Virus record (IMG/VR): IMGVR_UViG_3300021389_000173
Coordinates: 1-21,996 of that record
Origin: a virus
Strand: one strand, 5' to 3'
DNA length: 21,996 nt
Shown here: in pieces, positions 18,095 through 20,776 of the stretch
Position numbering within the stretch: the first letter of the stretch is position 1
How the letters are laid out: each line of letters opens with the position of its first letter
Notes under the pieces: generated by a model
The model's input: only the letters and a program-made list of their open reading frames with translations
Database searches by the model: none
Told to the model about the DNA's origin: nothing
Position numbers and translations under genes: made by a program

Positions 18095-18598
18095 ATGGCT
18101 TATTCAGGTAGATATACAATCAAAAATGCATCCAAGTACAAGGGTGACACAGCCAATATAATATATAGGTCGTTGTGGGAGAAGGCTGCATTTCAGTGGT
18201 GCGACAAGAATCCTAAAGTAAAGCAATGGAGTTCTGAAGAAATTGTAGTGCCATATTACTATGAAGTAGATAAAAAATATCACAGGTATTTTGTTGACAT
18301 GAAAATAGTATTTGAAGATAAAACATTACTAGTAGAAATAAAACCTGAGAAAGAAACGCTTCCGCCCGCGGGCCCGCGAAGAACTAAGCAGTATATTTCT
18401 GAAGGATTATCTTATGTAAAGAATATGAATAAGTGGGAAGCCGCAACTGAATATGCAAGAGATAGAGGTTGGGTGTTTCAAATATGGACGGAGAAGACAT
18501 TACAAGAAATGAAGTTGTTAAAAGGACCGGTTCCGGGTAAACTGAAGAAGCTTACACCATATAAACCTTTTCGAAAAAAGCGTAGAAAAAAGTTATAA
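18095..18598 (+). CDS. gp4: Head completion protein gp4
   Basis: 167 residues (T4 gp4 is 150). The N-terminus KYKGDTANIIYRSLWEKAAF (14-33) and WSSEEIVVPY (45-54) are gp4 hallmarks. A PD-(D/E)xK/TnsA-like nuclease core is visible: Asp68 in YFVDMKI and E81-I-K83 in LLVEIKPEKE. T4 gp4 acts with gp50/gp65 in completing packaged heads before tail joining; the nuclease-like fold is known for the family, and its activity here is inferred. The C-terminus is strongly basic (FRKKRRKKL). The ATG is supported by family length although no Shine-Dalgarno sequence precedes it (AACAAAAAAC). A 17-base all-G/C patch at 18362-18378 falls in the Pro-Pro loop after the ExK motif. Confidence 0.93.
   Translation: MAYSGRYTIKNASKYKGDTANIIYRSLWEKAAFQWCDKNPKVKQWSSEEIVVPYYYEVDKKYHRYFVDMKIVFEDKTLLVEIKPEKETLPPAGPRRTKQYISEGLSYVKNMNKWEAATEYARDRGWVFQIWTEKTLQEMKLLKGPVPGKLKKLTPYKPFRKKRRKKL
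18362..18378 (+). other. All-G/C patch with two overlapping palindromes inside gp4
   Basis: Seventeen consecutive G/C bases in a strongly AT-rich genome. They contain the perfect palindromes GCCCGCGGGC (18364-18373) and CGCGGGCCCGCG (18367-18378), which could form alternative short hairpins in the mRNA. They encode the proline-rich loop Leu-Pro-Pro-Ala-Gly-Pro-Arg-Arg of gp4. No T run follows, so this is not a terminator. Confidence 0.6.
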
Positions 18599-19880: not shown

Positions 19881-20597
19881 ATGGCGTTGCCAATATTATC
19901 TAATGATAAACCAATGTATGAGGTAGTAGTACCTTCATCACAAGAAACATTTAAATTTAGACCGTTTCTTGTAAAAGAGCAGAAAAGTTTATTGATTGCT
20001 TTTGAATCACAAGACAATAAACAAATTTTAACGACTATGCTAAATTGTATAGAATCGTGTGTGCCGGGTATAGACTTAAAAAAATTAGCTACATTTGATA
20101 TGGATTATGTTTTTACACAAATAAGAGCTAAATCTGTAGGTGAAAAAAGCACTATATTGACAAAATGCACAGAGTGTGAAGAAGAAAATAAAGTTGAAGT
20201 AAACTTAGAGCAAATCAAAATGGGAAAAGCTGAACTCAAAAACACTCTTATTCCTATAACAGATACAATAAATGTACAAATGAAATATCCTACTTATGTA
20301 GATATTGTACAACAACCTAATATTATGAAAGAAGATGCATCACAAGTTGAAGTTTTATTTCAGTCTATAAAATCTTGTATGCACGCAGTTCAGACCGGTG
20401 AAGATAACATCATTATAAGTCAAGAACCTATTGAAGAAGTTGAAAAGTTTGTTAATTCATTGACGAACCAACAGCTTGAAAAAATCACTGAGTTTGTTAA
20501 TGACATGCCTACACTAGAACATAAAGAAAAATTTAAGTGTGAAAAGTGCGGACATGATAATACATTAGCATTGAAAGGGTTACAAGATTTTTTTTAA
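19881..20597 (+). CDS. gp26: Baseplate hub protein gp26 (T4_baseplate family)
   Basis: 238 residues (T4 gp26 is 208). The N-terminus LPILSNDKPMYEVVVPSSQ and FRPFLVKEQKSLLIA (26-40) are typical of the T4_baseplate family (PF12322), which includes gp26. Two CxxC pairs, Cys96/Cys99 (TKCTEC) and Cys220/Cys223 (FKCEKCG), suggest a split zinc ribbon. T4 gp26 is needed for hub assembly. AAGGAG lies 6 bases before the ATG. The gene ends in GAT TTT TTT TAA at an eight-T run, a slippery site that would join it to the -1 frame extension downstream. Its place just before the tape measure matches tail-assembly chaperones of other phages. Confidence 0.88.
   Translation: MALPILSNDKPMYEVVVPSSQETFKFRPFLVKEQKSLLIAFESQDNKQILTTMLNCIESCVPGIDLKKLATFDMDYVFTQIRAKSVGEKSTILTKCTECEEENKVEVNLEQIKMGKAELKNTLIPITDTINVQMKYPTYVDIVQQPNIMKEDASQVEVLFQSIKSCMHAVQTGEDNIIISQEPIEEVEKFVNSLTNQQLEKITEFVNDMPTLEHKEKFKCEKCGHDNTLALKGLQDFF
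20588..20594 (+). promoter_or_regulatory. Candidate -1 ribosomal frameshift site T TTT TTT before the gp26 stop
   Basis: In the gp26 frame the codons are GAT TTT TTT TAA, giving a perfect X XXY YYZ heptamer directly followed by the stop codon, itself a known stimulator of slippage. An SD-like AAAGGG at 20574-20579 lies 8 bases upstream, comparable to the dnaX stimulator. In the -1 frame, reading continues TTA ATT AAC CTC without a stop to 20776. The run is of eight T's at 20588-20595. Confidence 0.65.
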
Positions 20598-20647
20598 TTA
20601 ACCTCTCTCATGAAACTTTGGAAAACTTTTTTAAGACCAATTTTTTA

Positions 20648-20776
20648 ATGATGCAACATTTTAATTATTCTTTAACAGAATTAGAAGGAATGTTACCGTG
20701 GGAGAGAGAGGTATATTTAATGTTACTTAATGATCATTTAGAAGAAAAAGCTCGAATAGAACAAACACGAGGATAG
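20648..20776 (+). CDS. Small gp26-extension ORF (gp51 or chaperone-like), probably read by -1 frameshift
   Basis: 42 residues from the first ATG at 20648, containing YSLTELEGMLPWEREVYLML and an acidic-basic tail. I recognise this pattern (S-L-T-E-(L/I)-x-x-M-x-P-(W/F)-E-R) from short proteins after gp26 in T4-like marine phages. No Shine-Dalgarno sequence precedes the ATG. The frame is open back to the gp26 slippery run and the added residues (LINLSHETLENFFKTNF) look like real protein. The likely product is therefore a gp26 fusion of about 298 residues, with the extension covering 20594-20776. In other tailed phages the gene pair before the tape measure gives short and frameshifted long chaperones; T4 uses gp26 and gp51 as hub assembly factors. 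Independent start or coupling remains possible. Confidence 0.7.
   Translation: MMQHFNYSLTELEGMLPWEREVYLMLLNDHLEEKARIEQTRG

Follow-up and report, generated by a model that had tools for sequence, protein, structure and literature searches.

Does the gp26 gene of this T4-like marine phage give rise to one protein or to two? The gene lies in a window of 21,996 nucleotides (nt), by which we mean the whole stretch of DNA that was analysed (positions 1 to 21,996 of the IMG/VR virus record IMGVR_UViG_3300021389_000173). Its last codons are GAT TTT TTT TAA, i.e. a T TTT TTT heptamer touches the stop codon, and the -1 frame stays open beyond it. On comparative evidence, we put the probability that a -1 ribosomal frameshift at this T run yields a long form of gp26 at roughly 0.93. 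The same very probably applies to almost all examined relatives apart from T4's own group and the Ackermannviridae. From the homology to T4 gp26 and gp51 and from the gene position it follows that gp26 and this putative long form would make up a tail assembly chaperone pair. The features concerned are the following (evidence in brackets):

19,881 to 20,597, + strand: gp26, predicted short form of the tail assembly chaperone, 238 amino acids (aa), stop TAA at 20,595-20,597 (PF12322, E = 3.5e-55; phrog_150, E = 1.7e-56)
20,574 to 20,579, + strand: Shine-Dalgarno (SD)-like element AAAGGG, 8 nt before the heptamer (sequence; family-level anti-SD peak against a synonymous null)
20,588 to 20,594, + strand: slippery heptamer T TTT TTT (sequence; family-wide retention of T TTT TTN; codon-usage test)
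20,594 to 20,776, + strand: -1 frame extension, 60 codons and stop, with a domain of the gp51 C-terminal type (phrog_634 match; coding-type substitutions)
20,601 to 20,612, + strand: 5' arm of a predicted downstream long-range stem (pairing probability, covariation, duplex energy)
20,697 to 20,712, + strand: 3' arm of this stem (family register 20,697-20,708; the window's best pairing uses 20,704-20,712)

The gp26 end, the heptamer and AAAGGG agree exactly with the initial annotation of the sequence. The -1 frame is open from 20,594 to 20,773, with its stop at 20,774-20,776, and encodes LINLSHETLENFFKTNFLMMQHFNYSLTELEGMLPWEREVYLMLLNDHLEEKARIEQTRG; joined to gp26 it would form a protein of 298 aa, the length that had been predicted. 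Its earliest ATG lies at 20,648 (codon 19), and the only start that the open reading frame (ORF) caller proposed for it is a TTG at 20,618. The extension matches phrog_634 (baseplate hub assembly catalyst, i.e. gp51; E = 5e-22). A second match is to the very C-terminal end of phrog_150, the profile of the gp26 family, an indication that this family includes members annotated as fusions. A search of NCBIfam gave nothing useful.

Conservation of the junction across T4-like phages

A tblastn search located gp26 in 731 and the extension in 583 phage records. We analysed 194 loci containing both parts, taken from annotated phages and from scans of IMG/VR in which gp26, its profile or the profile of the extension served as query; loci L117 to L196 were collected with gp26 alone and are thus free of bias towards the extension. 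In 191 of the 194 loci the extension is read from the strand of gp26 in the -1 frame; the three exceptions are T4, RB49 and Aes012. These 191 junctions comprise 161 distinct ones. The codon tests used 139 representatives at <85% identity, and the analyses of the stem and of the -1-frame starts used 137 representatives.

All 191 same-strand junctions keep an in-frame T TTT TTN heptamer together with an open -1 frame that encodes a conserved domain of 60 residues, and in all of them the gp26 stop follows 0-8 codons past the heptamer. Among the phages that keep it are Mosig, P-SSM2, S-CAM1, VH7D, Cr30, phiM7, Astolliot and Desulfovibrio phage 7757, and loci added later contain it as well (Ceceduovirus AS-zj, Menderavirus Bhz51 and Rhizobium phage RL38J1, the last with T TTT TTG). 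Every Kyanoviridae-type locus sampled carries the frameshift signal, as do several other T4-like groups. The last base of the heptamer varies (T 82, C 61 and A 18 in the distinct junctions), and the codon before TTT TTN is GAT, AGT, AAT, TCT, CAT or GCT, its final base invariably being T. From each gene's own codon usage T|TTT would be expected in 46% of cases but is observed in all 139 representatives (log10 P = -49.5, a value that ignores the relatedness among them); GC-richer gp26 genes, for which 29% would be expected, all keep the heptamer too. Away from the junction, only 21 of 31,986 positions in the 139 genes have T TTT TTN in frame.

The initial annotation had named homologues that lack the T run, or whose -1 frame is interrupted by stops, as evidence that would speak against frameshifting. 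None occurs among the 191 junctions; the four Ackermannviridae loci (L197, L198, L199 and L200), on the other hand, end gp26 without T TTT TTN (ATT TTC, GTT TTC, GTT TTT and CTT TTT). In three of these four, the ATG of the extension overlaps the gp26 stop (TAATG), and this family apparently uses a third arrangement in which the genes are split and coupled.

The stretch between the gp26 stop and the usual first ATG had been described as protein-like in the -1 frame. This description is borne out by 60 disjoint nearest-neighbour pairs: within extension codons 3-18, substitutions number 124, 124 and 349 at -1-frame codon positions 1, 2 and 3, a distribution that argues for translation of this otherwise 'intergenic' stretch in the -1 frame. 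In the public records of Mosig, P-SSM2, S-CAM1 and ACG-2014j, the extension either appears as a gp51 gene of its own or carries no annotation, and ribosomal slippage is marked in none of the public records opened.

Sequence elements on either side of the heptamer

Upstream of the heptamer, the anti-SD duplex energy across the family reaches a mean peak of -6.2 kcal/mol 7 nt before it, while most nearby positions lie at about -0.3; a second, weaker peak (about -2) is located 30-34 nt upstream. The SD-like element exceeds a synonymous-codon null (z = -10.5), whereas glycine-containing control windows elsewhere in gp26 show no excess over this null. In its key codon GAG is preferred over GAA (49:24, compared with a background of 26:74).

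Downstream, the mRNA exceeds its synonymous recodings in fold stability (mean z = -1.2 over 15 codons and -2.5 over 45 codons). Counting the last base of the heptamer as position 1 and assuming no prior structure, the pairs with the largest gain in probability over the null join positions 8-19 with 104-115 (about 0.5 in the core, compared with 0.05-0.1). This putative stem starts 6-7 nt after the heptamer, encloses roughly 84-94 nt and has its 3' arm in the PWERE codons of the extension. Two of its pairs link wobble positions on both sides: (9,114), with C-G in 51 and U-A in 37 representatives, pairs in 103 of 137 (74.5 by permutation), and (12,111), with C-G in 54 and U-A in 37, pairs in 99 of 137 (75.4 by permutation). 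On a tree of the gp26 protein from which the stem columns were excluded, edge-disjoint comparisons run the paired way by 14.2 to 0.3 for (12,111) and by 14.4 to 0.9 for (9,114), ranking them first and second among 905 wobble combinations in the pairing sense. The mean duplex energy of the arms is -12.8 kcal/mol compared with -5.8 kcal/mol in the recodings, and the best pairing in the window, of 20,601-20,609 with 20,704-20,712, reaches -16.6 kcal/mol.

At least 9 of 12 pairs can form in 92 of the 137 representatives. RNAalifold, run over all 137 sequences, returned no consensus structure because the stem is not universal; it was the comparison of pairing probabilities with synonymous recodings that revealed it. 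Five lineages (L105, L153, L169, L176 and L194) keep the heptamer and have no long-range stem; such lineages may use another stimulator. As a separate observation, the combination (9,87), i.e. window positions 20,602 and 20,680, covaries strongly, coupling C with A and T with G, and fits no structure considered.

Taken together, these comparisons support two candidate stimulators at the family level, an SD-like element upstream and a stem downstream. The layout resembles that of the Escherichia coli dnaX gene, whose -1 frameshift site likewise has a stem downstream of it and, at a fixed distance upstream, an SD-like element. In the window family, by contrast, the predicted stem is long-range and has its 3' arm within conserved extension coding sequence.

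Relation to T4 gp26 and gp51 and to other chaperones

The fused long form aligns with T4 gp51 without interruption across the junction (hhalign probability 99.5, E = 1.3e-22, 237 columns), while the alignment of the short form with T4 gp26 ends at the junction (E = 4e-29). T4 gp26 and gp51 are themselves paralogues (E = 1.6e-21): the Pfam family T4_baseplate spans gp51 residues 1-201, and the predicted gp51 structure matches the gp26 models. The extension aligns with gp51 residues 206-246 and has no alignment with T4 gp26. By homology, T4 gp51 is thus a complete long form, consisting of a gp26-like domain and the extension, and T4 gp26 is the short form; in other words, T4-type phages encode the short and the long form as two divergent genes. 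T4, RB49, Aes012 and Cronus accordingly encode in two genes, without a frameshift, what the window family would make from a single gene with a slippery site, the proteins belonging to the same family. It had been suggested initially that T4 gp26 and gp51 correspond to a chaperone pair of the short and frameshifted kind. They do match the short and the long form; they are not, however, the two halves of one fusion, as gp51 has a gp26-like domain of its own.

Part of this picture was available before. Both T4 proteins are listed as hub assembly chaperones (PMC3004832), and their assignment as tail assembly chaperones was published by Vladimirov et al. 2022 (Virology 566:9-15), as cited in PMC10885494 and PMC12846349. 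The former, citing Vladimirov, Gautam and Davidson 2022, describes some T4-like phages as having a short gene and a fused longer gene; according to the latter, the short-form genes of such phages are known to contain poly-T signals for frameshifting. The initial annotation knew of no published demonstration for this family; the T4 assignment and, apparently, the poly-T signals of other T4-like phages had already been published. Among the open papers searched, those of the matching ones that were read contain no description of an SD-like element or a long-range stem at gp26.

In lambda gpG/gpGT and other G-T type chaperones, there are likewise two forms with a common N-terminal domain, the long one carrying a C-terminal extension, a likeness that for the window holds at the sequence level. 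The lambda slippery site is G GGA AAG instead of T TTT TTN, and the window family differs further in its SD-like element and covarying long-range stem and in that no Phage_TAC Pfam match was found for gp26. A 2016 review calls G-T frameshifting conserved 'except T4' and also describes the function and ratio of the lambda forms (PMC5009743). In the chaperone of other phage families (Vandenendeviridae/Andersonviridae, phage Adele), the -1 frame is free of stops in all genomes, and the short form has a GTTTTT motif close to its end, according to PMC12846349; the window family, by comparison, has the full heptamer and two putative stimulators.

AlphaFold models of the window gp26 and of a T4-type gp51, which stood in as a natural long form, have mean predicted local distance difference test scores of 88 and 87. 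For residues 1-96 of gp26, the best matches in the PDB are 3fgx (Z = 7.6), the HK97 tail assembly chaperone 2ob9 (Z = 7.1) and 3klu (Z = 7.0), followed by matches at 4.5 and 3.6. We take 3klu (YqbN) and 3fgx to be phage or prophage proteins of the same class as the HK97 chaperone. At these Z-scores, the resemblance of the N-terminal domain of gp26 to a tail assembly chaperone fold is no more than suggestive. Sequence searches of the PDB with gp26 and with the gp51/extension profile found nothing, and Foldseek and VIA-align comparisons of the gp51 model with the PDB gave chance matches only, so that the resemblance is that of the gp26 model. The window gp26 also contains two distant CxxC motifs, KCTECEEE and KCEKCGHD, which resemble a split zinc ribbon (weak TFIIS-type Pfam match; structural match to LysW of 2.0 Å over 39 residues); several relatives have lost these cysteines.

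As to the gene neighbourhood, the initial annotation had placed the pair immediately before the tape measure gene. Genes of G-T type chaperones are located between those of the tail tube and the tape measure. A tail tube gene upstream of gp26 is supported (phrog_45), but the next ORF (20,781 onwards) had no match in family searches, and its identity as tape measure is based on position. Further away, the head-closure (gp4-like) gene at 18,095-18,598 contains a TnsA-like endonuclease N-terminal domain (PF08722, E = 8e-17).

Probable frameshifting, its alternatives and its possible evolution

Besides the missing homology support for the tape measure, several observations weigh against the frameshift reading as outlined here. 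The covariation scan takes in unsupported branches; restricted to supported ones, the Treekit sign test gives a marginal result (median p 0.016-0.25). The non-pairing combination (9,87) scores -12.6 in the same scan, i.e. its tails are imperfect. In the window taken alone the excess in fold stability is not significant (z of about -1.5), and in 21 of the 137 representatives the stem has <7 pairs and is weak or absent. Z-scores of 7-8 (<8) for the gp26 model could reflect a common arrangement only. Finally, 20 of the 137 representatives (e.g. P-SSM2, Vibrio, Cr30 and phiM7) have an ATG within the first nine -1-frame codons, and a separate small product is possible there.

This last point bears on the strongest competitor, which we nevertheless regard as very improbable: production of a separate small protein, gp51, by re-initiation after the gp26 stop at an ATG or a non-AUG start. 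The separate extension gene annotated in P-SSM2 and others would suit it, as would the Ackermannviridae, in which the overlap is mostly TAATG and the heptamer absent. Yet in 117 of the 137 representatives the first nine codons contain no ATG, and in 70 of 137 no ATG, GTG or TTG; the usual first ATG is codon 19-20, although codons 3-18 are already under protein-level constraint. Re-initiation also leaves unexplained the invariant heptamer, the spacing of the SD-like element to it and the stem 6-7 nt beyond, and T4 gp51 is an uninterrupted fusion. Even less probable is transcriptional slippage, by which RNA polymerase would gain or lose bases at the T run and part of the mRNAs would join the frames. 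The eight T's of the window, and the runs of 8 or 9 in 56 of 139 representatives, would permit this; in 72 of 139 the run is only six T's, however, with frame and length staying those of a ribosomal heptamer, and an SD-like element and a downstream stem suit ribosomal rather than transcriptional slippage. Chance, i.e. Phe-Phe codons forming a T run in an AT-rich genome before a neutral or decayed -1 ORF, draws on the codon bias of gp26 genes (TTT 71% of Phe codons, GAT 74% of Asp codons) and can be dismissed, refuted at the family level by the retention of the heptamer far above expectation, the conserved -1 coding and the homology to an intact T4 gene.

What the comparison establishes for the frameshift reading is a conserved heptamer, conserved -1 coding, two predicted cis elements and a fusion homologous to T4 gp51; from these we infer the frameshifting itself, its efficiency and the binding partners of the chaperones. 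Most ribosomes would end at 20,595-20,597 and release the short form of 238 aa. A minority, with P- and A-site tRNAs on TTT TTT, would move back by one base on T TTT TTT and continue in the -1 frame to 20,773, giving the 298-aa long form with its helical C-terminal domain of the gp51 type. As in dnaX, the SD-like element would pair with the 16S rRNA of the elongating ribosome and, together with the long-range stem, would set the frameshift efficiency. On the model of lambda gpG/gpGT, we would expect the short form to coat the tape measure and the rarer long form to bridge to tail tube or hub proteins, and both would be absent from the virion.

A frameshifted chaperone pair is a known kind of system; what is added here is the three-part signal, possibly undescribed so far, and an evolutionary picture. 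On balance, we favour the view that frameshifting was ancestral in T4-like phages and relied on this signal (SD-like element, T TTT TTN and a long-range stem with its 3' arm in extension codons), the T4 lineage having replaced it by gene duplication (gp26 and gp51) and the Ackermannviridae by a split gene with an overlapping start. With the 3' arm lying in the extension's own codons, shifted ribosomes would then have to unwind the stem. On this comparison, the exception of T4 to G-T frameshifting is a narrow one, gp51 being the long form as a free-standing gene, and the covarying stem offers a concrete cis-element for testing. Across the T4-like group, the ways of making these two proteins may form an evolutionary series.
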